Assembly: GCA_032358255.1 (NCBI GenBank)
Contig: JAULBX010030817.1
Span: 114,617-178,616, forward strand
DNA length: 64,000 nt
Direction: 5' to 3'
Source of the DNA: Heterotrichella gracilis
Taxonomy: Eukaryota; Sar; Xanthophyceae; Tribonematales; Xanthonemataceae
Shown piece by piece: positions 14,601-63,126 of the stretch (its first letter is position 1; each line of letters begins with the position of its first letter). The notes under the pieces are model-generated. The model saw only the letters and a program-made list of their open reading frames with translations, did no database searches and was not told the origin of the DNA. The position numbers were made by a program, and so were the translations under genes.

Positions 14601-16529
14601 ACCTCCCCGTTGGAGGGCATGGCCTCCGCCCCCTTTGAGGGCATCCGCTTGAGCAGGATGATTGGCGCGGGGGGGCAGGCGCGCGTGTTCCTGGGCCTTG
14701 CGGGGGAGGGGCAAACGCTGGCCGTCAAGGTGGGTAGGAGGGCAAGGGCGGGCACTGGCTGCCAGATACAAGCATTGGTGGCATGCAAGTGGCCTTGAGC
14801 ACTTCCATCGTTGCATTTTGGCACGCTCCTGGGCGTACCATGTCGTTCCATGTCAATGGGAAAGAGTGGACATCCGCTGTTTTCGATCGGTGGCAAATGT
14901 GCACAAAATTGCGTCCCATTACAGACAAGAAAAGAGTGCATGCTACCCAGTCAGATGTGGGTCCCACTTCACCCCCCCTCCACCCTGCCCAGGCCCTGAA
15001 GCACCCACTGCCCACCCACTGCGAGGCCGGCCTAACAGGGGCAGCAGCGCTGGACGCCATCATTGGCCAAGGGGAGGGGCTGAGCCCCCACGTGGCGCGC
15101 GTGTACCGGCACATGGCATCGGGGCCATCGGGCGGGTCTCGGGATGTGCATGGCCGCTCCATGAGCCGCTGCGGCAGCTTTGGCGCCGCGTGTGTGTGGG
15201 TGGCGCTCGAGTACTGCAACGCAGGGTGTCTGCTTGACCTGATTGACAAGGGCCACTACACCACCCACATGTCCCGATTCACAGGGGGGCCACACACAGG
15301 TGCGAGGAGGCAGCGTGAGGGAGGGGTAGTGCAGGTGGTGCCATGGGTTGTGTCCATGTGACAGGTTTGTATTCAGGGGTATTGCTTGTTTATGGTACAT
15401 CACATTCCACGCCTGTGCAACATTGGTACTGGACGCGCAGAGAATATAGCCTGCTAGGCGGTGCTCGGAGGTCATAAACGAATCAAAAGATATATATAAA
15501 ATGCCTGCAGCAGTTCTTGGGAATTGAGGTTCCTTACCCATGTTTTCCCCCTTGTGCAGCCCGCATCGTGCGCACCATGTGCCAGGTGGCGCAGGGCATG
15601 GAGGCGCTGCACCAGGCGCACATCCTGCACGGCAACCTCACACCCAAGAACGTGATGATGTGTGAGACGGGGGATGAGCTGCATCCCTACCTGCCAAAGG
15701 TAACACATCTGGCTGCCACCTACTGCCTTCCATGCAATGTGCATCTGCTTGCCTTGCTGCTTGTGTAGTTGTAGCGTCCTGTGAGCGCACACAAAAGTAG
15801 ACACTCATGCAATATCCAAGCGATACTGTCAGGCAGTGCACCACATCCAGCCCCCTCACACCCTTGGCCCCCTCACCCCCCTCTCCTCCCCTCAGGTGAG
15901 CGACTACGCTCTCTCCCCCTGTGGTCCGGAATCCGGCAGCGCCCCCTACCTTGCTCCCGAGGTGCTGCGGGGCGGCGCCTGCAGCTGGTCGGCGGACGTG
16001 TACTCCTTTGGCGTGATGATGTGGGAGACGTACACCGCCACGCGGCCCTGGCAGGGCTGCAGCGAGGCCTCCGTCGCAGCCCTGAAGGCCATGGGGGGCG
16101 AGCAGGCGCTGCTGCACTTCCCAGTCAACACGCCGCCTGGGATGAAGGTGGGCGCGGGTGGTAGTGCGGGAGAGGGCCTGTGCGGGATGCTTGGCCATTG
16201 CCGCCACCCATGTGGGGGCTGCAAACCGAATTGTGCGGGTGTAATATCGACCAGTGGCTGCTATTGAAGTTTGCAAATAAAACCAATTCAAAGTACTAAA
16301 GTGAAGTAGATGCATTGCCTTTGTGGCGTTACCTGGATTATTAACCAGTGCAGACGCACCACACTTTTGGGCCCTATCCTGCCTATCTGCAGCATCCGCT
16401 CCCCTTGTCCTGACCCTGTGTGCCCCCCTTGTGCAGCGCCTGGCGCAGTCTTGCATGGCCGACGTACCCGAGCATCGGCCCAGCTTTAGCCAAATAGTGA
16501 AGCAGCTCCGGCCGCTGTGCAACAGCTGA
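11652..16529 (+). CDS. GAF-PAS sensor protein with C-terminal kinase-like domain (probable pseudokinase)
   Basis: Twelve exons (11652-12112, 12277-12354, 12655-12750, 12953-13082, 13264-13384, 13668-13741, 13982-14112, 14438-14729, 14993-15299, 15560-15699, 15896-16147, 16437-16529) join in frame to 724 residues. The first in-frame ATG is 11652; 11694 is the next candidate. A GAF domain (about 60-250) has the usual blocks RFREHPLVSGLPNIRFYAGAPL and YRLGALCVVD. A PAS-like domain follows (about 255-400; LWDRSPGALMLCDV, FWDLFDP). A kinase fold covers about 430-724: Gly loop IGAGGQARVFLG, TLAVK461, then HGNLTPKN where HRDLKPEN is usual, SDYAL for DFG, LAPEVL and a C-lobe end EHRPSFSQIVKQL. The catalytic Asp is Asn589 and the following Lys is Thr, while the VAIK Lys and the DFG Asp are kept. 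This suggests a nucleotide-binding but weak or inactive kinase. The signal sensed is unknown. Confidence 0.88.
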
Positions 16530-17266
16530 GTGGAGAGGCGCCTGGGGCTGGGGCTGGGGCTGGGCAAGGAAAGTGGGCATAGGGAGCAGCTCCTACTGGG
16601 AAGGGCTGGTGGTGTACAAGTGGGCAGATAACGTGTGGGGCGAGTGCATTTGAAGTTTAGGTGTGGTACTGTAGCCGTATAAGGTGTCGCCGCTGTGTCA
16701 GTGCGCACCACTTTTTCATGATGGTTTTGCGTTTCCTGACTGCCTGTTGTTGGGTCCTGTGGTTGCGTGCGGGGGGGCCTGCGTGCTGCCCGTGGGGTCT
16801 GGCACTGTGCGTGGGGGCTAGAGTGTGTTTTGCTTGATATGGATGAATATTTTTTTTGAGTATGAATATCAATTGTTGTTTGATTGGTGCTGCTTTTGCA
16901 AGCCTAAAGTGGAACAGCTATTTTGTCCCATGAGAGTCGGCACGCCTTGTAGGGGTTGCCACACTGTGAGTTACTTTTGAGCAATGCAGCAACCGCAAGT
17001 CAAACTTTTTCTTTGCAATTGTCTGCTACTTAATAGAAAGGTGGTATTACCCCGTGGTTGTGTATAACATTTCCTTGTGTTTTTTTCAACTCTGGTCAGG
17101 GGTTTCTACTTTTGCTGATTATTGCCAAAAATAAAGAGTACATTGCACATCCTCGGAAGGTCCGGCAGACAGATGGGTTGGCCTTTCTTACGCAAACTTA
17201 GCTACGTTTCAGTTGACACCTCGGGGGCAGACTCTGAGGTGCTATTATGTCGTATTCAGTGCCAGG

Positions 17267-34623: not shown

Positions 34624-37600
34624 ATGGAGGTGGCTACCATCGACCCTTTCAAGTTGCACTTCCAGGAGCTGGGCCTGGACGACCTGGACTATGCCTACCG
34701 GTTGCAGCTGGCCGAGGTGGTGGGCAGCAGCATGGCCAACCAGCCCAGCAGCAGCAGCGCAGGGGCCAGCGCGTCCACCCGCGCAGCAGCAGCCGTGCAG
34801 GCGCTTCTCGACTCGCTTGACCAGGAGGAGGAGGTGACTGAAGCCCAGGTGCTCCAGGTGGGCACCTCCTCCTTACAGCCCCAACCTGGTACCAGGGATG
34901 GTGTGTCTTGGGGTCCAGGGACTGCAATGGAATGTATTAATAGCTCGCTGACAAGGGCAGGAGGGCTGGTGCCATGTATGGTTCTAATACAATAACGGTG
35001 TATGGTTGAACTGGTTGGACCTGCGCGACGGTGGCTGACTTGCAGTTCCAGATTGCTGCACAGGGAACAACCCTTGTGCGTGACCCTAGAGCAACGTGTC
35101 ACCCACCACTATATGTTCACTTTGCACAACACAAATTTACACAGGGTCCGCAAAGCAGTACTAAACGCAGGATATCTGCGTACAGGCTATCGCGCTGGCT
35201 GATGCTGCGGCGGACCAGCAGGTGGCGGCAACTTCCTCCCATGCCAAGCTCGACGCAGCGCATGAGCAAGCGCACTCTGTACAAGCCTCTCAAGCCAAGC
35301 AGAGCGTTGGGATGCTGGGGCTCCCGGTCAAGCTGTGGCAGCGCCTGAAGCACCTGCTGGGCGCCCACCCATCTGAGGCGCTGGTCAGGCTGCGCTTTGA
35401 TGGGGTGTGCCAAGCGGAGGGCGGTGCTGGTGCTGCAGGCTGCTCCTGTGTGCTGCTAACTCCAAGGTGCGTGTGCGGTGTTTGTGGTGTGTGTGTGGGG
35501 GGGGTGTGAGGATAGATCATCGATGGCAAGGGTACAGACCAGTGGCGGTAGTACACGCATGCTTGAAGCTGTTGTAAGGTTATTTATGTTTGAATCAGTA
35601 CAGTGTCCAATTTTAGTAAAGTATAGTATTACTCCCATGCGATCGCACCTGCAACCATACCATACAAGCCGCGGCGCTGCAATTGTTAAGAAATGGTTAA
35701 CTTGATATTGCACACGCTGTTCATTGGCCAAACCAAGCCTTTCCTGCATGTCCAAACTGTTGGTGCCGCTGCAGTGGCGACCTCCTCACCCAGGAGAAGC
35801 GCCACATCAGCGCTGCCACCTCCCTTGAGGCCGCCTACCTAGGGCTGGAGATGGGCCTCAACCAGGCCATTGCGCTGGGCATTGACCGCGTGCGGGTGGA
35901 GAGCGACAACAAGCAGCTGCTGGCACAGGTGCGGCACTGGGAAATTTAATGTACTACCAATTTGGGAACAGTTAGTTCCTAGCCTGCCTTGATGTTTGGT
36001 GCAAGATGGTAAAGGATGGAGTGGCTTTGTTGCTGTGAAAGATTGTGGTGGAGGCAGGGCCTCGATCTTCAAGAGTCATGACCAATTGTGTGCTTCATTG
36101 CTGCAGCTTGGGGCACCAGACGCTGTCCCTGCAGGGCTACGGATGGCATTCCGTGCGGTGGTGGAGGCAGGGGCAGACCTGCAGGGCTGGCAGTGTGTTC
36201 CCATTTCACACAATCTGAACAACGATGCCAAGCGCCTGGCAGTGGAAGCACTGGTAGAAGGACCTGACGGCGTGGACAAGGTGAGGGATGAGGACCAAGG
36301 GTGGATTATACACAACACCTTCTAGTCCATCTGTGACCAGTCCAACCGCATGACTCACATTAAAATCATTCCTAAACCAGGATTCACTGGGCTGCTGGTT
36401 GATGCGTTGTGGAAAATTCACAGGCATTGAATGGAATTGAAAACATTTGATTCAGCCTCTGATGTTTTCACAGCGCATTTCAATGAATTTCAATTAACCT
36501 CGAGTAACTGATCAGCCAATTCAATGGACAGCTTGTAACTCGACACCATTGGGTGCAGACGCTCCATCAGTGTGGCATCTGCCTGGAGGAGGTCCCCGCC
36601 TACACGCTGGCGCACATGCCCTGCCACCACCGCTACTGCCGCGCCTGCATGCGCCACCACGGCCAGGAGCTGGTGCGTGCACACAAGTACCCCATCACAT
36701 GCCCCGACCCCGACTGCCGCCAGGCTCTGTCTGAGGACCACTGCGTGCAGCTGCTGCTACAGGAGGAGGACCAGGTCATGCTGTGCAAGGTGATTGGGCA
36801 TGCACACCTGCCCTGCGGGCTGCAGCGGTATGCATCCTTTGCATCGGCAAGCTTGGTCAGGCCCTCCAGCCTTGCGACTGCGTTGAGCATCTGTCTGTAT
36901 GCAACTGCCATTGCGGCAATGACATGTGCAGGTAAAATCGATGTCGAAAATCTGTATCATACCCGTGAATGGCGTGCCATGGCACATAGAATAATGGTCT
37001 GCAGACGTTGTATTATTGGTGCCAATCCCAGTCCACATGTGCCTGCAGCTGCAAGTGGAGAGCGCCATCCCCGACGCGCACAAATTCTACTGCCCCAACA
37101 CTAGCTGCTCAGAGCTGCTGATAGTGGAGGAGCTGGAGCCAGACACACCCATGGAGTGCCCGCACTGCCGCAAGCTGCTGTGCGCTCCCTGCGCCATGCG
37201 CTGGCACGCAGACCTGACATGCGCCCAGTACCAGGTACACCCTAAACCCTAGAAGGTTAACCAAACCCCTTAGCAGCGCTGTGGCACGCCGACCTGTCAT
37301 GCCCGTAGTATCAGGTGAACCCTAAACCCTAAACGATGAATCTAAAGCCCTAAGCAGCGTTGTGGCCCGCCGACCTGTGCTGCGCCCAGTACCAGGAGGC
37401 CCAAGTTGTACATGATGGGCTGGTGAGCTATGCACAGCGGTTGGTGGTGCCAGGTGGGTCACGGGTCCATGCAGACCTGGTCCAAAATGCCACAGATTGA
37501 TGGTGTGCACATTGCCTTGCGTGCAAGCTTCTGCCTCACCAAGGCTGCTTGTTTTGATGGACCAGATGCATGCCCCAGGGCGCACACTAGATACGTGGGT

Positions 37601-40720: not shown

Positions 40721-42189
40721 GGCTAAACCCAGGCAGTGTCCGGCAGACGCACTCCGTATGGAGTGGTCGGATGGTGAAGTTGTGCCCAGCTGAACTTGGA
40801 CAGTTTCTGTGAGGCCCGCTTCTTAGATTGAGGTACAAGTGCCACTACTGAGGTATATGTAAGCAATAGCAGCTTGGGTCATAAGACTCCTTACACAAGC
40901 GTCAGGAACACTGCCCAAAACTAAAATGGCACCCATGTTAGCCACAAACCTGGTATTGTTGCAGCATTGCGGTTGAATATCGCAAAGTATGGAGTGTGAT
41001 TGCACCCAAGGGGCAAAGAGAGTCTGTATACAGGCACTGGAGCGGGAGGTCGAGTGCGGCATCTAGTCGTTGTTGCGGTAACGCATACACTTATTTGGTG
41101 TCCATCATCAGCCGAGTCGAACTTACACGGTTGTACATCCTTGAACACGCCAACCGCAAAGCGCAGCCAGTCCCGGCGATGCATGCATGCCTACGCATGG
41201 CATGCCTAAAATGCATGCAAGCAAACCCATTGAACTTGGCTTCCGTTGGTCGACTGCAACGTTTGTTTCTATGAAATACCGCCAATCACGGAAAAAACAA
41301 GGTTCTCTAAGTTCATTCCTGCCGGGCAACGCCTTTCCGCCCTTGGCAAGGGTGAAGGGGGGTGGGGGGTTGGCTCTGTTGGGAGATTGACCCATGGAAA
41401 GGGGGCTGTTGTGCTGCTTGCGAGTGGGGGTGGGGTACTTTGACGTGTATGAGCTCTTTGTCAAGCTACCTTTAAATATTTCCAACGTCATTGTCATCTC
41501 ATGTTTCCCCTCTCAGCACCATCATCTTGCCCCCTGGCATCCACATGTTTGTCTATGGAGCTACAGCCCAACCAATCGGTCTGGACCAACCTGGTACCAG
41601 TATTGTTACATTCCCACACAATGTCAACTTGATTGCCGGCGAAATATGTGATGTATACCCCCACGCCCGGCAGCCAGCAATTACTCCCTGCGGGCCATCG
41701 TGCACTGCGCGACATCGTGGCCAGGTGGGTTTGCATTTGACATGCCACTTGTCACATGATAGCCGACGGTCTGCACAGTTGGAACCGCCTCCAAAGTCCC
41801 ACCCAGACAGTTGCGCAAATAAAGTTGAATTCAACCAGTGCAGTGCAACATTGAATTTTACAGGCTGCAGGGAGCTTGTAACATTCTGGGGGATCAATAT
41901 TTCAGGATAAATATTCTTTTAGTATATTTGAAGTGTGCAAACTTAATATCCAATTGCACCTTGAAAACCACGTTCATCAATATTGACCAATGACACGCCC
42001 TTTTGCTTTTCTAGCAATAATTATTACGGTTAGCCTAAGGGGCATAACGATTGTCCACCAACACACCCATTTACCTCTATCTTGTAAGTTTACATCTGAT
42101 CACACAGGCAGTCTCTAAATTCAAGTATACATTTCTCGTATTCAATAGTTACAGTATCACGCACAACTTATAGCAAAAAAGGTATCAAT
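40721..42189. other. intergenic region
   Basis: It holds the OTU promoter (left) and the 3' flank of the RNA ligase gene (right, AT-rich from about 41900). A 140-codon open stretch at 41491-41910 matches no family and is not called a gene. Confidence 0.45.
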
Positions 42190-43323
42190 CTAGTCTTTCC
42201 ATGTCCTGACAGGCCTTTCCTTGGCTCTGGTGGGGTCCGCCATGCCCTGCAGGGCCTTCAGCAACATGGGTGTTGCATCCTTGCCATCCCGCAACGCGAA
42301 TGCAGCCCCATGGACCTGCTTTGGCAGCTCACGCTGCACAGTCACCGCAAACGTCTTGCGATCCTCGGCGTCAAGCCCGGCGACAACTGAGGCCACGGTC
42401 GCCCGCAGCTGGTTGTAGCGCTCATCTACCTCGCTCCATGTTTGCTCAAACCAGGGCATGCACTCGTCCGGCATTGCCGTCAGGCACGACTCAAAGGGTA
42501 TGCCGCGGCAGAACAAGTTCTCAACAGCCTGCACGGTCAGCCCTTTCACAGCCTTGTGCAGCTCGACGTACTCTGGGAACTTCAGCTTGACGCGGTCGCC
42601 GTTGTCAAAGCGGACGACAAAGCCCTCCCGGCCTTCCCGGGGCAGGGCCTGCAGCTTGTGGATGTCCTCCACGCCGTCGTACACCATCGGGGCTGCAAAG
42701 CCAGGGTTGGGGGACTCAACTTCCATGCCGTCGCGCTGGAAGGTGGCCAGAAACACCAGCTCGTTGCGGTCCCCATAGTTGACGACAATCCGGTTGGCAG
42801 GAGCGATGAGCTCAAACACATAGGTCAGGTTGGGGTCAAGCACACTCCACACATCCGCGTCCCGCAGCAAATGCTTGGCCACCCGCACATGCGGGCCGTC
42901 GAAGCTGCCACGGGACGCCACATGCCACTCTTGGGCGTAGTGGAAGAGCAAAATGAGGCTGCCATCCAGCTTCTCTTGGACGTCAAACCGCGGCGTTGCC
43001 GTGTAGCTGCGTTCCTCAAGGTTGAAGAACTTGGGAAAGGCGCGTGCCACAACCTCGCCCTTGTCATCAGTGATCAGCGAGCGCGCCGCGAGCGTGATGC
43101 CGTCCCACAGCTTCTTGAACTGCACCGTCTCAGTGTACCTCCACAATGTCAATGGCAGGTGTGGGTGCGCATGGGCTATGAGCAGCCCCCGCTGCTCATA
43201 GTCGCGCAACCCATCCACCGGATAGGCGCTGCGCAAATCCGGGCGCAGCTGCGTCGCTGGTTTTGGTAGCAAATTTTGCGGGGTTTTCTGTCCCTGCTGC
43301 ACGGGTAATCTCGTATCGGGCAT
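42190..43323 (-). CDS. standalone T4 Rnl1-type RNA ligase, single exon
   Basis: One uninterrupted minus-strand frame of 377 residues from ATG 43323 to TAG. Length matches T4 Rnl1 (about 374). Nucleotidyl-transferase motifs are in order: motif I EKLDGSLI (Lys118 the expected AMP-attachment Lys), SRGSF (138-141), VFELIAP (169-174), EGFVVRF (233-239, motif IV) and VKLKF (245-249, motif V). The N-terminal KFFNLEE before motif I and the C-terminal HGAAFALRDGKD block are also Rnl1-like. The enzyme should seal 5'-phosphate to 3'-OH RNA ends with ATP. It lacks the kinase and phosphodiesterase parts of plant and fungal tRNA ligase. It has no introns, unlike every other gene here. The open frame continues upstream to 43500 without ATG, so a remote upstream exon is possible. 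Confidence 0.88.
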   Translation of the reverse strand: MPDTRLPVQQGQKTPQNLLPKPATQLRPDLRSAYPVDGLRDYEQRGLLIAHAHPHLPLTLWRYTETVQFKKLWDGITLAARSLITDDKGEVVARAFPKFFNLEERSYTATPRFDVQEKLDGSLILLFHYAQEWHVASRGSFDGPHVRVAKHLLRDADVWSVLDPNLTYVFELIAPANRIVVNYGDRNELVFLATFQRDGMEVESPNPGFAAPMVYDGVEDIHKLQALPREGREGFVVRFDNGDRVKLKFPEYVELHKAVKGLTVQAVENLFCRGIPFESCLTAMPDECMPWFEQTWSEVDERYNQLRATVASVVAGLDAEDRKTFAVTVQRELPKQVHGAAFALRDGKDATPMLLKALQGMADPTRAKERPVRTWKD

Positions 43324-45061
43324 TTCCTTGTGGGACGCCAGCACTTGAGCCACATCGTCCCTTTCTGCACCACCCTCGCCATCACCTCCTACCGCCCGCA
43401 GGCCGCTGCCAGCGAGCTGATGCCACCTGCACAAGGAATGGTGGATAGCATTATAATTAGCAAGGCAGCAGTGCAACAATACTGGATGCAGCGGCTGCAC
43501 AATCCCCTTACATACATACGTATTGTGCCTCCAAATCTAAATCTATAGAAAGTGGTTTTTTATTTCACTTCATCTGATATTAAAAAATAATAATCAGTAA
43601 GTATTCCTGTGAAAAAGTCCTGTGAAACTATCTGTAAGTAGAAGACAGGAAGGAAACAACCTCAGGTGACAGCCAGCAACAACACACACACACAGGTATG
43701 GCGTGTTGTATTGTGCTACACACCAAAAATGCATGAACCAAAAGGCATAGCCTTGCCAAAAATACTGTTAGGCAGAATAGTGTCCCGGGGTGGGGAAATA
43801 ATAGAGTGTCCCAACGCAACACAAATTCAGCGCAATGGGCGGGTAAGGGTGCGGGAAAAAACGCAGCGGATTTTACGCAAGGGGGGCAGGCGGGGTGATG
43901 TAGGGGGGGGGAAGGCGGCAGGCAAGGGAGTGGGCTGGTTAGAAGGGGACAGATATTGATTGATCATGTTTGCAACATGCATGTGCGTTCATTTGCAAGT
44001 GGAGGGCTGAGTGTGGGCAGTAAGGTATGATACTACAACACCAAGTACCTTCGAGATGCCCTGCGCAGCGCCTGTGTGGGCGCAGGTTGCCTCGCCAACC
44101 TCGTGGTGGGGTACACCCTTCGCAGCGCCTGTAAGGCGCCAACAGCTGCGCGACCCTGCACCTTCCACATTGCGCCTGCCTGTGGCCAACCCTGTACTAG
44201 GAAGAGGTGCACACAGTAAGAGGGCTGTATGGAGGAAAGACACCCAGCAGCCACCAACCTAGAAAGCAATTTTCACAGTGCCAGGTAACATTCTACACAA
44301 CAGTGCAACCTGCGTGACACAGGCAAGCTCGGCGACAGTACTGCATGTATAGCTGTCTTGGAGTGTGGGTGTTGGTACTAGAGGCTATGCACAGGTGTGT
44401 TGAAGAGCTTTGAAGGGATAAGAGAGTTGAAGGTGGTAGACTTTGAGGCTATTTTGCCTGGAGTACAGGCTTGTTTGAAGGGGTATGCTGCACCATACAG
44501 CAGCACCATAGAGCTGCAGCTTAGGTGAACGAGACACCATGACAGCGCTGCTCAAATAGTGCCACATCTACAGCTAGCTAGTCATATAAACAGCTATAGT
44601 TACGGGCTCAAGTAGTTTCACCACAATGGCAGGTATGCTAGTTTGTAGACAAATACAGCGATACTAGTTTGTTAGTGGGTGTATGCAAGTGTAGTTGTGC
44701 ATGCACCCACCACCGTGACCACTGGCCGAAAATCGTTAGGACGCGCTGCTACGGTCTTCAGATTGAAAAAGGCACCGCTTACATCACTTCTTTCTCGTAC
44801 TGATGTCCACTGAACAACTTGCATAACTTGCTAGGTGAAACAGTATTACTATAAATAGGTTGGCATGCACGCTTATATAATATCATAATAACGGGTCACT
44901 CGAACACTTGCACGCACGCAGGCAGGACTTGCTTGCAACAACTTGCAACAAGCAAGAGTTGAAACAGACAAAATATTCCAACTGTTACTTATCCTGTTCT
45001 GGTTGCCACCGTTCGCCTCCGCCACGGGCAGCCCACCCACGGGCAACCCACCCGCCACGCC
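43324..45061. other. intergenic region, divergent
   Basis: It lies between the RNA ligase (minus) and the zinc-finger gene (plus) and must hold both promoters. A CA run sits near 43682-43694. The segment 44880-45061 is likely the leader of the next gene. No coding exon is recognised. Confidence 0.45.
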
Positions 45062-48052: not shown

Positions 48053-51000
48053 TCACTTCCTGCCTCCGCGCGTCTTCACACCCAGCGCCAGCTGCGCCTG
48101 CGGTGTGATGTTGTAGAAGGCAAGGGAGAACTCGTCGCGCAGGAAGCCCACGCCCTCTCGGCTCAGCTTCTGCTTGTTGGCGGGCAGGCCAAGGACCTGA
48201 AGAGGGGAGGGTGCGTGGGTGGGTGGGTGGTAACAGGGGGACACCACGCATGCAGAGCACCCTACAAACCAGTGCGCCAACCCTGGCTCATCATGGCAGT
48301 CCTGTGTGCATCACATCGACACAAGCACAGAGCAATGCCAGCCAGCAGAGGCAGTAGATGCGCCCACAACAACTCTCAATGCATGTTTATATTCCATTAC
48401 AAACGCAGCAATTGGACGTTGAGAACTTCCCCACCCCATCCACCTCCACCAGGCGCTGTTTATTTTAAAGTATTCATATTATTATCATTATACATATAAT
48501 TTAGTCATCCACTTTTTCATTTTTGTTATTTCCCCAGCCCCCGTCCACCCACCTCCGCCAGGCGCTGCTTGAAAGCCCCCAGGCTGGCTGTGAGCGAGGC
48601 CACCTCGATCTCCAGTATCTGCCCGTTGCACGCCTCCACGTCGGGCAGGTCGGGCACAGCCACCCGCACCTTGCCGGGCCCCGGGTGCGCCTGCAGAAAC
48701 TCCGACTCCTCCTGGAGCACAAAGTCGGTGCGCTGCCGCTTGGCGTCCTGCTCGTCCTCAGCGTCGGGGGGCGGGGGAGGGTGGGAGGGGGAGGGCATGG
48801 GGGGTGGGCCTGCGGGGGGGTGGGGTGGGGGTCAGGGTGCGAGCTGGGGTGGGTGAAAATGGTATGCTCATGTTGGGGAGGGGCAGATGGTGCACTGACG
48901 CCAAGGGCTGGAAGGAGACAGGTGACCTGTGAACTTGCCTCTCTAAGACATGTGTTCACACATGCCTGTTTCCCCAGCAAGCACAGTCAAATGATGCCAC
49001 CCTGCCCCTGTATGGCAGTAGTTGTGCGGTCTATTGCTGGTGGTGCACCCCCTATGGCCCTGGCCCGCTTGTGCAAGGTGGGAGCAGCGCGTTACCTGGG
49101 TGGGTTGGCATGTGGCCTGGCGGCGGCTGCATGCCCATGGGCGGCCGCATGGGCATGGGTGGCATGGGGCCCATGGGGCCCTGCGGCCGGGGCATCATGT
49201 GGTGCTGCGGGGGCGGCGGCGGCATGTGCGGGCGGTGTTGTGGTACTGACACACTGACCACCATGGGGCGACCGCCTGGCGGCATGGGTGGGGGTGGCAG
49301 CTGGCTGGGGGGGGGCATTTGCCTCGGCGGTGGGGGCAGGGGGTTGGGCGCTGCAGGGGGTGAACACAAGCAGGGGGTGAGCACACACCCAGGGGGTACC
49401 AGTGCAGCAGCACTTGGCTGCCTCCACAGTTGGCATGCATGTGGTTGTGCCACTGCACACTTCGCCTTCAGTGCCCTCTCATCCCATGCGCCTGCCCTTT
49501 TCACAGCCCACTCATCACATGCACATCATGTCAAACACAGTAGCCATGCACCGCCATCCATACCCACTGGATGACCAGCGCAAAGGAATTCCAGGCTACA
49601 ACTGCATATCCCCTGCCCCCTACCTTGTTGTGGGCGCATGATCTGGCCCATGCCACCTCCCATGGGGCGTGGCGGGTACCCCCCTGGCCCTGCCATGGGC
49701 GGAGCCACAGCCATGACAGGGGGAGGCTGCATGGACTGCTGCGCATGCTTCGAGTCCTGCAGGGACGAGGGCAGGGGGTTGAATCACAGTTGCGGGGCAA
49801 GATTCAGTGGGTACCACGTGGTGGACAGGCAGGCATCTATGATATTTTAGTTAAATTTGCAAATGAAACGTGGCAAGTGACTGGCTTTCTAGCAGAGTAG
49901 TCCCTCCTGCCACATTGCTTTATGCACAGGAGGGTCACAGCCCTGCTCCCGCCCCCCACCTTGATTGACTTGAGCAGCTCCGGCGTGGGCGTTGTCTCCC
50001 CGTCCCACACCACCTGCCTGTCGCTGCCGCTGATCTTGGCCTGGTCAAGCGACTGGCGCACAAGCTGGGTGACCTCCTCCTGGGTGGTGCCTGCAGGGGG
50101 AAGGGTGGAGGAGGGTGAGGTGGGCAGGGGCCGGTGCAGAAGGGGCAGTGTTGACAACAAATAAACTTGGTTTAAAAGAAAATTATATTCTCAAAATTCA
50201 ATCTGCGTCAGCACCTCTTCACATATAGAATATAGACCATGTCCTTGCTTATGTGTGGGGAGCGTACTTGCAATGGTGTGCTTGCTTGTGTTAGGGGTCT
50301 TAAGCTGGATGGCATCTGCAATGATTAGTCTCCCGTGCAGAACTCACTGGTGTTGAGTATTGCTGCAACAATGGGCTGCTGCTACTCCACTACCACCTAG
50401 GCCCCTTTCGCCCCCACACCCACTCCCACACGCACCGAAAATGTCTGGCCGCGTGCGCGCCAGCCCCACCAGGTTCCTGCCAATCTCGTCGTCGCTGGCC
50501 TTGGTGGTCTCCCTGATCTTGGCCATCATGGCATCGCGCTGCTCCTTCCACTTGGGGTCTATGAGGCTCACGCGCATGTGCTCCGCCATCTGGTCCATGG
50601 GGATGAGCTCGCCGGTGATGGGCGACACCACAAAGGCGCTGGCGGCGGCCTCTGCGGCCTTGGCGCGCGGGTCCTGCAGGGAAAGGTCAACATATCAGGA
50701 TAAGGGGAGGGTTAACATATCAGGATATGTAATAATCTAGGACATCCAACATGTAAAAACGCCCTGTTGGCAGGAGGACTATATATACATTCAAGTCCTC
50801 CTGCCATTGGTGCAAGGGGCTCGGCAGATGGGTGCTAGTGCAGGGCGTGTGCCTTTGCGAGTATGGGGTATCATCTTGCACAGTGCACTCTGAACATCGA
50901 TGCCTGCCATGCACAGCAAGCATTGGTACACCACCCTCCCCTCCAGCCCCACCTGTCTTTGGTAGTCCTTGACCACCCGCATGGGCGCCTCCTCCTCCTC

Positions 51001-54000
51001 CTCGACAACATGCACAGCACCGGCGGCAGGCGGAGCGGAGGGGGGGGGCACTGGGACAACCCCATTGGCCGCCTCTGCCCCCTCCGCCACCAGCGCTGCT
51101 TCCTCCTCATCCATCTCGACCTCCATCTCCTCCCCTAGGTCTCCCTCTGCACCCTCTGCACCCGCATCCTCCTCCTACAGCACAGCAGCCACAGGGGCAC
51201 CATTCCCAGTCAACTCAGGGAAGAAGGTAGCACGGCGAAATAGAAGACCAATAATGATCCATAGTAAATTGTTATGGCATTGACATCAGGCCAATCCAGA
51301 TAGACACAGCCTTTGCCATTAACGCAGCGCTTCAACCTGCTATTCACAAGAAACCCACAGCTGCCTCACAGGGCCCAACTCTCTAAAATGTCCAATGCCC
51401 CCCCTGCTTCCCCCGCTATGCCCCCTACCTCGTACTCCGCCGCCCTGTTGAGCTGGATCACGTCCTTCACGGTGAGCGGCAGGGGCAGCTCAGCATCCTC
51501 ATCATCAAAGAAGTCAATGGTCTCAACAACCACAAACTCGTGCCTGCGCGGGAGAGCAATCCTTCAGCGCCATGGTGTGCCAGGCAGGTGGGATGCGCTT
51601 GACGCTGCCTGGCCAGGGTGCAGCCTAAATGGATGGATTGGGTGAGAGCGCCAAAGCCCCAAGCATTGCGCACTGACAAGTGCACATGCCGGCAGCGGAA
51701 ATCAGCATGCTAGACTGCAGCGGTGACACTGCTGCTGCATGTGTGCCAAGCACTGCACCCCGCCCCAAGGCGCCCCCAAGCCACGCAGCCATGGGGTCAG
51801 ATTTCGCTTGCAGCCTGCTTCTTCTCCCTCGCCCTCGCCCCACCCCCACACCTACCATTCAATAGACGCCATTGCGTTGCGCTCCGCCTCCGCCGCGTCC
51901 GCCTGCCGCTTGGCCTCCTGCTCAGTGGCCTTCTCCCACTCAAGGCGCTTCAGACACCGCTCAAGGAGGAACGCCCTGCATACCATTTGCAGTGATTGGC
52001 ACATGAACCTAACTAGGTGTGGCTGGATGTGTGCACACCAGGCACGTGAGGGGCCACAGGCCGCATTGATTGCGCCCCACCAACAGCAGCTGGATTTCAA
52101 AATGTTGCACCGCACTGGGGCCCAATAAGATACTCGGATTTTGCACCATTGGAGATGGGCACAGTGAATTGAAGCTGGCTTCGTAACCAGACAAGAATGC
52201 CCCCCGGGGTAGGTGATTGCCTCCATTGGACCCTAAATGCACACATGTAGTGCACGCTGGGCCCAGGCGCTGCTGCTCAACACGCACCCCCACTGGTACC
52301 CGGTCTACCCTCCCTGCTGCATGTCATGCAGAAGACCTCATACTGCGACGCACACATCCCTGTAGCACCAGTACCTACACCCATCCACCCCACTCCCCAG
52401 CAGCCGACCCATGCCCAACAGCACCACACCCACCGACCCACACCTCCCATGCACCGCACACATAGTACAGCTTGCGCCGCACCTGTCGCTGGCCTCCTTC
52501 TCCAGCCGCTCCAGCAGCCCCTTGGGCGGCATGAGCACCTTGGAGTATGCGTCGCACAGGCTGGTGAAGAAGCCAAACATGGAGTGCGTGGGCTTGAGGA
52601 AGTTGAACTGCTGGTTGGCGTGCTCGCGGTTGGCCAGGCCCGTGAGGAAGCTCTTGCCGTTGCGCGCCACAAACTGCGCGGTGAGCTTGATCACGTCCAG
52701 GTCGAGCCCTGTCAGCCCCTCAGGGATCGACACCTGGCGCGCCACAAGAAAGTGGTGTGGGTGGGCAGTGGGCAGAGGGCGCTAGGGAGCATACACGCAT
52801 TGCTGGCCAAGTCTCATTAAAATATGAGGCAATACTGTTTATGCAGCAGGCCAGCAATAAAAGATCCTTGACGGCACGGCACAGCTATATGTACCGCAGA
52901 CTGTTGATGCAAATACACAGCGTGGACAAGCTGCACGATTTATCCGCCACCCTGGGCACAGCGGCCGGGAGTATGCAACAGCACTGCTGCTTGCCATTTT
53001 TGGAGGAATGCAGCACGCCAGTCCACCCTTGCAACGCGTATGTGCGCTGCCTGTCTGCGTACCATGTACTCCTCCTTGGCCGGCTGCTCAAGCGGCTTGA
53101 CGGTGGCGGGCAAAATGACCGGTGCAGTGGGCAGCGGCACTGCGCTGGGCGCTGCTGCCTGCTGAGCCTGCGCCCCCTCCCCTGCTGCAGGCGCCTTGTC
53201 CCCATCCTTGGACTCGGTGACCTGCAAAGCACCATTGTTAACAACAATCCCCTACGGTGGACAACCACCCAAAAGCAACCCTGCCTGGTGCCGTCAAATC
53301 AGCCACCAGGGTATGCCAATACCAGCCACACGTGGACCGCAGAGCAATGTGTGCCAATTATGCACTCAAGCATGGCCTTAGCGCCTGGAGGGTAGCAGGT
53401 GGATTGCATTGTCGCTCCATAAGTGCATTGGCGCACAGGTGCACGCGCTGCCTTGATGGTAAAGGGAACCCATATGGAGAAGCACGTACGTTCGCCATGG
53501 GTAAAGGGTTGCCTGGTGATGCCCGCTGCTTGAACGATCAACGGCAGTTGAGATCAAGGCGCCTGGCAGATAGTATGCATGCATATGCCCCCAGCACCCA
53601 ACTGGGCTGCCAACCCAGTGCAGACTTACTTTGTATCTGTAGTACGCATGGTATGGATCTGTGGGCCGCAAGAAGTTGAACTTGACGTTGTTCTTCTCGT
53701 TGGCCAGGATTCGGCTCTCAAACTCCTCGCCTGAAGGGCAAAATACATGTAAAGTACCATCATATGCATGCATTGCAGGCTGTCCCAACAAACCACCACG
53801 CAGCCGTACCATTGCGTGCTACGAAGGAAGCAGTCTTGTCTACAATAGCCCGTATGTCTGGCGGAGGCTGGATGATGCCGATGGCCTTGGTTTGCGTTTC
53901 CAGGACCTGGACTCCTGACAGGTCTGGGGCAGGCAGAGAATCGCGCACTTCAGACACTGCCACCAGGGCCCCAGGCCCAACACCATTGCTTTCAACACCC

Positions 54001-59163: not shown

Positions 59164-60485
59164 CAGCAAGCACGAAGTTGTGGTGAAACGGGTAAGATGT
59201 TGGGTACGAGGTTTGGCATTGGTGACGTGTAGCTGACAGTTTCTGCTTACCCGCTACCATTATCACTGCCCAGCGCTTGCCGTACTAATGTACCTTGGCT
59301 GACAAGCGCTTGCTGCTTCGCAACTCAACGAAGGCCTGCACGCATTACAATGTTTATTCTTAAAAAATAAGCAAGGATCGAAATGGGCCGTTTCCTCACT
59401 GTACAGCGATTGCATTACACGTTGCCCTACCCAGTGTCCTACTTACCCTCCTGGACACATGCATGCACACCAATGCATGCATGCGATCTACGCGCTTGTC
59501 TAAAGCATACCACGCATCCGTGCACATCCCACCAGAGAACTATGTGCATGATGTATTGCTGAGCGCCATTGACAGGCCTCCTACCTCCGACTCTCTTCGC
59601 ACGGTGGGCGGCCGTAGCATGCCCAAGTAGATGCTACCAATCCGTTATTTAGAAGGGGCCAGTGGATGAAAAGGGAATTCAAAGAGCACTAAACACAACA
59701 CAGCGAACTAATACGTGAACGCTGTTTTCTATAACCCACATACGAGATCGGTTAATACTGCCTGATATAACCCACTAACCACTAGGCTTGGGTTGAACAA
59801 GCAGGAGTGGTGTGGTGGGATACAAACATCAAGGTTCTTTTAAGAGGAAGGCATCCAAGCTCGCGAGCTCGTAGTTTTAGTAGTTCTACAGGTGAGATCA
59901 ATGCATGCATGCATGCATGCATTGCAGCAATTGCACTCCCGTTTCAACAATTGTGTTGTGCTCAAACCTTTTGTTGAGAGGTTTCGGGCAAGCTTGTCAA
60001 TCCTCGTTTAAAAGTGATTGTCAGTTGGCACGTTGTTTGCTGTAGACGTCCTTGTTGTTTGGTTAGCTCGCACAAACTGCTTGCATACCAGGCATTGCCG
60101 GCTCATGAGCCCCTTGTGACGGGTGCATGCCATGACTTCCCCTTGCCACCTTTCGGTGCAGTACTAGCAAGAAAAGTCGTGGTTCAGTGTCTTTTGGAGG
60201 TTTTCCCCTGCTCACCTTGAGGCACGTCGCGCACTGCACTGCACGCACCACCACCACCTCGCGTGTGACTGGCATTGGCGAGACAGTTTTCTGAGCGCCT
60301 AGACGGACAGCTTGAAGCTTTGGTTCTTGCATACCCGTTTTTGCTTGGGTACTGGGTTCATGTAACGCGGCAGCCCTCTTGGCGAGGTTTGCAGTGTCCC
60401 ATCCGAGCCTGGCTTGGCAAGCTGGGTCAACCCTTCTGGTGGGCGATGCAGCTTGGTGCCCCTGTGTAAGCGCATCGCCACCACC
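59164..60485. promoter_or_regulatory. divergent intergenic region, MIA40 / MYB
   Basis: Both promoters must lie here. It contains GCAT-rich stretches (59458-59490) and a perfect 26-bp palindrome (59899-59924). No TATA box is clear. The last few hundred bases are presumably the MYB leader. Confidence 0.45.
59899..59924. repeat. perfect 26-bp palindrome of GCAT units
   Basis: About five ATGC units flanked by CA and TTG ends make the whole 26 bases self-complementary. Confidence 0.9.
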
Positions 60486-63126
60486 ATGGACAACGGCTTT
60501 GGGGAGGGAGACTACTGGACGTGAGTGTTTGTCACACGGTGTTGCTGCAGCGCGTACTGTGTAGGCTGAAATGCAGTGGCGCTGATGGTGTGGGGCCCAG
60601 CTGCCCCAAACAGGGGTTCCCTTAATTGCATGGCCAACTGCATGTGCAAACCTGGCATGTTCACTGAAGCCCCCTATTGCTGTCGTGCACGAGGCACTTC
60701 TTGGTTCCCACGTGTCTGCAGAAGGCCCACTGTGCGGAAGGCCCACTGTGCACCCACGCGCTTCCCAGTTACCCTGAGGGTATTGGGCACGCACCGTCTG
60801 CCATGTGCTTTTACCACGCCCCTCACCCTTGCAGGCCTGACGACGACAAGGTGCTGGAGGTTGCACTGGCAGAGCACTGGCAGAGCGAAGACAAGTGAGT
60901 GGCCAGGAACCTGTGAAACTATGCACTGGGCTGGATGGGTAGGCTGCTGGTCCATACTTTGAACACGCTGTGGTACCCAGTTGGGTGTGGAGCACGGACA
61001 CTTTGGCGTAGAGAGTTTGAGCACGTTGGCCATAGCCAGTCGACAGCCTTGCCCCGCATTGTACCTTCCTCCTGTTGTGGTTGCAACCCCTGCCACCCCC
61101 CTGCTGCAGGTGGGACCGGGTAGTGGCGCTGCTACCCAACAAGTCTGTGGAGGAGGCAAAGAAGCGATTCCAGGAGCTACAGGTGCGCACAACAACCTCT
61201 GCCCTGTGCACAACATCTGCTGTCCTGTGCACAACAACATCTGTCCTGTGCACAACAACGTCTAGTCCATCTGTGGCCCATGTACACCATGCCCACCCGT
61301 GCACGCACCACATGTGCCATGCCCCACCCTTGCGCTCGCCGCGTTGTCCGTGACCTCCCCCTCCCGCACAACCACATACGGGGACACCTTTACATGTTGC
61401 ATTACTGCCGACCAGGTGCCTGCATCTGCACGTGTCAGACATCCCGCTGCAGCGGCGGTGTGCGTGAACGGTCCCCACCACCTCCTCTTGCCATGCATGA
61501 CTGCTGCACCCTCCGCACCCACCTCCCATTGGTGTCCCCAGGTTGATGTGAGCGACATTGAGGGGGGCAAGTGCAGGCTGCCTGACTACCTACCTGTGGA
61601 CGAATCAGCAGCAGGCGCAGTGGTAGGGCATACACGCTTTTTCGGCAGTGAGGGGGTGGGGGGGAGATCGTGCTTGGCTGGCATTTTCAAGCGTTCCGCT
61701 CATGGGGTGACCATGTTCTAGCGGGCAGAGGACATCGCTGCATGCTACGGGGCTCGTTCGTGCATGCTCAAAACACACCACGTGCATACATCGACACATA
61801 GCTTGCACCAGTGTGCCACCTGGGTCTCGTTGCAACCCCCGTGCCATGCACCCTTGCTGGTGCACAACACGCGCAAACCTGCACAGTGTGACAAAAAATG
61901 CCACCACCCACAACCCCTGCATCCCCCACCCTCACCTCCACCGATCACCAAGTTCGCCAACGTCCCCCACCACACCCACACCCTGCACCCCTTACATTCC
62001 CCCACAGGCTGCCAAACGCGCCAAGCCTCCCACCGATTCTGCCAGCGAGCGGCGCAAGGGCATCCCCTGGACAGAGGAGGAGCACCGCCTGTTCCTCATG
62101 GGACTGGCCAAGTTTGGCAAGGGGGACTGGCGGAGCATCTCGCGCAACTTTGTGGTGTCGCGCACGCCCACGCAGGTGGGTGTGGGTGGGGTGGGTGGGG
62201 TGTCAAACTGGGATGCATGAATTGTGGGTAGCTGTGTGGGAGAGGGTGCATGGGTCCTGTACATCAGGAGGTGGGTGAAACAGCATGGCTATCAGGACTG
62301 CAACCTGGAGGTGTGTGTGTCTGCGGTTGGGACACCCAGTGGGGTGGGGGGGAGGCATGGTATGGGGCCGGCCAGGCCGCTGCCATTGGCCTCCATACTC
62401 ACGCATTGCGCACTCCACCACCCTCCTCATTGCGGTGTCACGAGCATGCGGCTTTTGGTGGGGCTGATCTGCGCTTCCTGCGGCACCCCAGGCTTCGCCA
62501 TGCTGCTGCCATTGGCCCCCCATACTCACGCATTACGCACCCCACCACTGACCCGCAGGTTGCCAGCCATGCCCAGAAGTACTTCATCCGCCTCAACTCC
62601 ATGAACAAGAAGGACAAGCGGCGAGCAAGCATACACGACATCACCTCCATCAACCAAGGGGCACAGGATATAGCAGGTGAGGGCGGGAGGGAGCAGTATC
62701 GGTATCACTTGAGTAGCAACTTGTGCGAAAGAGGTTCCCATAGCCTGGAATGGCGCTCATTACTCTCGTACTTGACAGAGTTGCAAAGTTTTCGCCAGCA
62801 TTAGCAAAAAAGCAAGTGGCTATGTCGGCATGATCCATATCCCCCTAAAAGGGGTTGTTTAGTGCATCTAGCACCACCACCTAGGGTAGCACATCATCCG
62901 GGGTTAGCCTGCGCACCCATTCGGCATGCGCGATCTCTCCTCTTCTGACATCCCTGCTTCCCGGTCTTCCCCATCCCCAGGCCTCATCCCCGGGGGCCTG
63001 ACTGTCCCCGGCCAGCCCATGATGCCCCCCCCCCTCATGCCTATGCCGGGCACCATGGCGCTGGGCCAGCCACCAGCACTGGGCATGGCCATGGGGCAGC
63101 AGATGCATCAGCAGCCGCAGGGGTAG
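60486..63126 (+). CDS. DIVARICATA-type MYB transcription factor (SANT plus SHAQKYF MYB)
   Basis: Seven exons (60486-60520, 60835-60894, 61110-61182, 61542-61622, 62008-62175, 62559-62676, 62981-63126) join in frame to 226 residues. The first SANT domain is [38 protein letters not shown] (about 10-55). The second MYB repeat is [37 protein letters not shown] and [15 protein letters not shown] (about 95-150), followed by [13 protein letters not shown]. The SHAQKYF signature and the two-domain order define the plant DIV/I-box-binding-like class, DNA-binding nuclear proteins that recognise GATAA-type motifs in plants. The C-terminus is short, Met/Pro/Gln-rich ([12 protein letters not shown]) and may activate transcription. 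ATG 60486 has a CCACC context. It is head-to-head with MIA40. Confidence 0.93.

Follow-up and report, generated by a model that had tools for sequence, protein, structure and literature searches.

We analysed a 64,000-nt stretch of DNA (hereafter the window) from the alga Heterotrichella gracilis (contig JAULBX010030817.1 of assembly GCA_032358255.1), in which an open reading frame (ORF) at 42190..43323 on the minus strand is, judged by its sequence, a real and intact gene for an Rnl1-type RNA ligase. We consider it probable (roughly 60%) that the host nucleus carries here an intact Rnl1 of phage or bacterial type that was acquired horizontally and kept until its base composition approached that of the host.

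The ligase ORF and its motifs

The 377-aa product matched the Pfam family PF09511 with an E-value of 3e-16 (60.4 bits against a curated cut-off of 28.3) and the profile phrog_562 with 2.9e-50, residues 55-360 aligning to positions 31-362 of 377 (phrogs profiles have no curated cut-off). Structures of T4 RNA ligase 1 (2c5u, 9do4 and 5tt6) were matched at 2e-6 to 8e-6. The score against TIGR02308, the equivalog family of T4 RnlA, was 46.5 bits and stayed below the cut-off of 242.25. In the 68.5-Mb assembly (903 contigs) the ORF is the sole PF09511 match and the sole protein match. The length by itself is weak evidence: the open frame continues upstream of the ATG as far as 43536 (448 codons stop-to-stop in all), and the longest stop-to-stop ORFs in 40 windows generated by a first-order Markov model with the same composition reached 445 codons (mean 283); the family matches decide. 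Features of the ORF are as follows.

42190..43323, minus strand: coding sequence of the Rnl1-type RNA ligase, 377 aa (ATG at 43323, TAG at 42192-42190; from profile matches and alignment)
43078-43080, minus strand: residue 82, Ser in place of Gly (89-row alignment)
42958..42972, minus strand: motif I, KLDGS, residues 118-122 (alignment; K118 aligns with T4 K99)
42616..42627, minus strand: motif IV, EGFV, residues 233-236 (alignment)
42580..42588, minus strand: motif V, KLK, residues 246-248 (alignment)

The names of motifs I, III, IV and V are given as we understand them to be used for this family, and K99 of T4 is the lysine that we take to be adenylated. K118, E171, E233, K246, K248 and Y252 are the same residues as in the T4-like row of the alignment, at six positions whose roles in T4 we presume. 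At 20 of the 28 T4 positions compared (what we take from the T4 literature to be the active-site positions, together with their neighbours) the residues are identical; T4 K119 is replaced by R. The alignment has 52 columns with one residue in at least 85% of the other 88 rows, and the ORF agrees with 44 of these conserved columns. Comparison with a profile of four phage Rnl1 rows gave an E-value of 7.5e-40 at 21% identity, with residues 72-348 lying on positions 38-332 of the T4-like profile (379 columns); this match reaches into the C-terminal domain, and most of the Rnl1-specific C-terminal domain appears to be present.

Pfam detected only ligase families in the 377-aa ORF and neither a kinase nor a phosphodiesterase domain. 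The protein thus lacks the tripartite architecture of the fungal Trl1 and plant RNL tRNA ligases, which belong to the same broad superfamily. With T4 Rnl1 (RnlA) and phrog_562 it has in common the nucleotidyltransferase motif residues, the length and, by sequence, the C-terminal domain; it differs from T4 Rnl1 in the low identity to the T4-like rows and the low TIGR02308 score, in its location in a eukaryotic chromosome and in having no Pnkp match in the window. The original prediction, made from the letters alone, had named a T4 Rnl1-type RNA ligase at these positions, with nucleotidyltransferase motifs around KLDGS, a length like that of phage Rnl1 and no kinase or phosphodiesterase domain; on all four points the profile matches and alignments agree with it.

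Relatives and origin

The collections searched for relatives were those of viruses and prokaryotes. With tblastn, matches were obtained to 1287 records in a phage collection of 50,697 and to 35 in a plasmid collection of 72,556, all at <60% identity. A scan of genome contigs produced 153 relatives (many of the best 80 from Bacteroidota and Actinomycetota), and two scans of IMG/VR, whose sets share contigs, produced at least 541 and at least 520; a single-protein scan of viral contigs gave no relative. We analysed the best 80 loci of each scan (bacterial genomes and the two IMG/VR scans). Since the loci kept were ranked by similarity to the ligase ORF, comparisons between groups lean toward it.

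The closest relative among the matches listed is encoded by an IMG/VR contig, L095 (39.6% identity over 326 aa), where the ligase gene is surrounded by genes for GroEL, PolA, DnaB and a kinase/phosphatase. Of 29 related viral records, 9 contained terminase, as did 6 of 10 in an earlier set that overlaps with these; none was detected in the record with the best match, which is 18 kb long. We did not use phrog_2 as a phage marker; it matched 6 of 10 records and 11 of 14 control genomes as well. A related arrangement, Rnl1 with a Pnkp-like neighbour, occurs in chromosomes of Bacteroidota and Actinomycetota; identity to the ten best-ranked genome loci was 32-39% (37 and 39% for the best two).

The partner gene was sought with a profile seeded by five phage kinase/phosphatases and iterated once; E-values ≤1e-50 were counted as strong matches. 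Such a match was located within 3 kb of the ligase gene in 54 of the 80 bacterial loci, in 34 of these at a distance of <300 bp and on the same strand. In the window, by contrast, no ORF of at least 30 codons matched the PNK profile, and hence the ligase gene described here does not form a Pnkp-Rnl1 cassette. Another arrangement was seen on a Rhizobium plasmid (L005, 6432-11023), which carries an Rnl1 relative near rtcR and an RtcB-family gene; the 11-kb stretch shown has no annotated kinase/phosphatase.

For the first tree, 172 proteins were reduced to 89 rows (one dropped for length, then 82 of 171 because a retained row was ≥70% identical). The ligase ORF was placed among IMG/VR rows, with support of 88/82 for the grouping with L095 and 94/95 for a 27-row set. 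The second tree had 51 rows hand-picked from the same proteins, bacterial rows included (alignment A3, also hand-picked, holds 49 of the 52 listed references); here the Bacteroidota rows formed a clade without the ligase ORF (98/98). Several residues of the ORF are also commonest in IMG/VR rows, although they were picked after the alignment had been seen: W61 (23 of 29 IMG/VR rows, but also 3 of 8 Pseudomonadota rows), E103-E104 (27 of 29) and NGDR at 241-244 (18 of 29). Among 22 Bacteroidota rows, 17 of them listed, the counts for the three are 0, 7 and none. Taken together, the sequence comparisons suggest horizontal acquisition by the host lineage as the most likely origin of the Rnl1 gene.

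Several observations weigh against this reading. The branch of the ligase ORF is long (1.45 in the 89-row tree and 2.03 in the 51-row tree), and the placement among IMG/VR rows collapses in the 51-row tree. The approximately unbiased (AU) test keeps groupings with the 25-row Bacteroidota set, three rows of which come from other phyla (p 0.28), with five Pseudomonadota/Planctomycetota rows (p 0.44) and with nine Actinomycetota, actinophage and plasmid rows (p 0.16). Given the long branch and three AU alternatives, none of them rejected, phage and bacterium are both candidate donors. In the two IMG/VR sets, just 4 of 80 and 7 of 80 loci had a strong partner match within 3 kb of the ligase gene (45 of 80 and 56 of 80 at E-values up to 1e-4), so that a ligase gene without this neighbour is not unusual among viral relatives. 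Finally, the ORF departs from the alignment at 8 of the 52 conserved columns, including G82S at a position where all 88 other rows have Gly; such departures could mean changed or weakened activity.

The strongest of the alternatives, one that we hold to be unlikely yet worth serious attention, is vertical descent of an old algal or older eukaryotic gene, whose single ORF would be explained by intron loss or by an ancient intronless state. The long branch fits such a history, as does the host-like base composition described below, and searches that covered viruses and prokaryotes only would be compatible with a gene long resident in algae whose tree follows the species. A stand-alone 5'-3' RNA ligase is, moreover, known in an animal, Branchiostoma floridae (BfRNL; PMC3400036); it resembles the ligase described here in standing alone, a likeness drawn from its description only, and works there with separate healing enzymes. 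Vertical descent is countered by the best matches in the collections searched, which are viral and bacterial (∼40% identity), and by the residues commonest in IMG/VR rows, post hoc as their choice was. The Rnl1 family and one stand-alone eukaryotic ligase are already known; judged by title or the start of the abstract, none of the papers listed in our literature search deals with Rnl1 in green algae.

Capture through a giant DNA virus infecting algae is considerably less plausible. RNA ligases do occur in iridoviruses, ascoviruses and Marseillevirus (PMC3493329), but the genes around the nearest viral relative are of phage type (PolA, DnaB and GroEL) and terminase is present among the related records, as given above. 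A capsid of nucleocytoplasmic large DNA viruses was detected in 0 of 29 records, in a search that was silent on its control as well and with many of the records being fragments. The trees were built from phage/IMG/VR, plasmid and bacterial rows, giant-virus Rnl1 not being among them. Of the sources put forward by the original prediction, transfer agrees with the greater similarity to viral and bacterial proteins among those searched, while a large DNA virus and a retrocopy gained no support; the phylogeny it had proposed, built here with phage and bacterial rows, returned the IMG/VR grouping at 89 rows and lost it at 51.

Gene ends and chromosomal setting

The part of the ORF that matches viral proteins, residues 35-359, contains no intron. 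The N terminus is ∼31 residues longer than in the viral proteins and has 5 basic and 2 acidic residues there. The following features lie outside the coding sequence.

43324..43536, minus strand: in-frame open stretch lacking an ATG; it includes a possible 3' splice site (ORF scan and sequence)
42149..42153, minus strand: TGTAA, 36 nt past the stop codon
42090-42094, minus strand: second TGTAA (sequence)

No in-frame ATG was found upstream of 43323 within the open stretch, which includes a 3' splice-site-like stretch (TCCTTGTGCAG) whose CAG begins 106 nt ahead of the start codon. Because the frame is open above the ATG and this stretch is present, an exon upstream of 43323, i.e. a leader exon, is possible. 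The single exon of the original prediction is therefore supported across residues 35-359, where the ORF is unbroken, and left in doubt at the 5' end. TGTAA is the polyadenylation signal of the chlorophyte type, and its place after the ligase gene would fit mRNA ends of that type; with 48 occurrences on the minus strand in 64 kb, its presence there is weak evidence alone.

An ORF without an intron would also fit a retrocopy derived from one of the host's own spliced RNA ligase genes. We rejected this explanation, to which we give very little credence, since the parent gene was not found in the assembly (a single PF09511 match and a single protein match) and since the downstream stretch examined contains no long run of A.

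The chromosome that carries the ligase gene is eukaryotic. The neighbours of the gene are listed below.

35770..37222, plus strand: RBR-type ubiquitin ligase to the left of the ligase gene, apparently spliced (domain matches in different frames)
35770-35934, plus strand: RVT_3 domain match
36571-36705, plus strand: RING domain match
37073-37222, plus strand: IBR domain match, in another frame
50455..53731, minus strand: SF3A1/PRP21-type splicing factor to the right of the ligase gene, apparently spliced (Surp and PRP21-like stretches, two of each, in three frames)

We infer that the RVT_3, RING and IBR stretches belong to one gene; this ubiquitin ligase apparently has an RNase H-like (RVT_3) domain ahead of RING and IBR. 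The name SF3A1 is what we take the domain pair of the right neighbour to indicate. The other genes of this region had been described as having 3 to 15 exons; both neighbours indeed appear to be spliced, and our check covered those two.

The G+C content at third codon positions (GC3) is 0.76 in the ligase gene, 0.86 in host RtcB exons, 0.86 in host RBR exons and 0.30 in a bacterial rtcB gene from the same assembly; the DNA flanking the ligase gene has a G+C content (GC) of 0.46 and 0.51. A value near that of the host is of importance here, since AT-rich contigs of bacterial and phage-like kind are present in the same assembly. Stretches of these foreign contigs have GC of 0.36 (C1, which carries the bacterial rtcB), 0.33 (C811) and 0.34 (C825); the genes there are compact and of prokaryotic or phage-like kind, those of C811 and C825 including a T4-type phosphatase and an Rnl5-type ligase. 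The contig of the ligase gene (C824) is unlike these three in having apparently spliced eukaryotic neighbours on both sides. Such foreign contigs do exist, so misassembly of bacterial or phage DNA into a eukaryotic contig was considered; it is the least credible explanation of all, with contamination rejected because of the flanking genes and GC3 and with the flank composition and the single ligase copy in the assembly pointing the same way.

A search for mobile-element borders around the ligase gene gave short imperfect repeats only. No tRNA genes (ARAGORN, bacterial code) or Rfam families were detected in the window, and the ORFs at 60066-61589 and 15641-16903, which have no Pfam match, look non-coding.

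RNA-end enzymes of the host and possible role

The only HAD_PNKP match in the assembly is on the foreign contig C811 (GC 0.33), and for this reason we rejected acquisition of a phage Pnkp along with the ligase. With the partner profile we obtained a second match on C811 and a weak one (3e-5) to a PNK3P-type gene on C223. Three PNK3P pieces were found in the assembly, the best of them on C674, which is also foreign (GC 0.33); the PNK3P-type gene on C223 (GC 0.56) belongs to the host. Pieces of host CLP1 are present as well. RtcB pieces on C7 and C739 are arranged as in spliced genes and represent two RtcB genes.

A second ATP-dependent RNA ligase was identified on C164 (68368-68655, minus strand, GC 0.55). 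It is of the Rnl5/DRB0094 type (TIGR02306, 1.1e-51) and so of a family other than Rnl1; it has a leader-like N terminus and, since a motif IV/V-like sequence is located in another frame, is probably spliced. No match to PF08303 was found in the assembly by a search that was also silent on its control.

The predicted Rnl1 ligase probably seals RNA ends with 5'-phosphate and 3'-hydroxyl. In this reaction ATP would adenylate K118, the AMP would be passed on to the RNA 5'-phosphate, and attack by the 3'-hydroxyl would seal the strand. As no kinase/phosphatase gene stands beside the ligase gene, unlike in most bacterial loci examined, the enzyme would act on ends that are already 5'-phosphate/3'-hydroxyl or on ends healed by host CLP1 or PNKP. 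Because the host also has RtcB and the Rnl5-type ligase, Rnl1 need not serve tRNA splicing, and most likely it is an accessory enzyme for the repair of RNA, such as tRNA, that has been cleaved, rather than one for standard tRNA splicing.

A more far-reaching scenario, which we regard as doubtful, is that the host alga took over just the sealing component of a tRNA-repair cassette from a phage, without the healing component, and wired the ligase to its own healing enzymes. The alga would then have a third route beside RtcB and the Rnl5-type ligase, perhaps directed against bacterial or viral tRNA-cutting toxins. Green algae retain RtcB, land plants have lost it, and RNA ligases are patchily distributed among eukaryotes (PMC13247085). 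An alga with RtcB, an Rnl5-type ligase and a phage-like Rnl1 would lend itself to the questions of why several RNA-joining routes persist in cells and whether domestication of a phage-type repair enzyme is possible in the absence of its partner.
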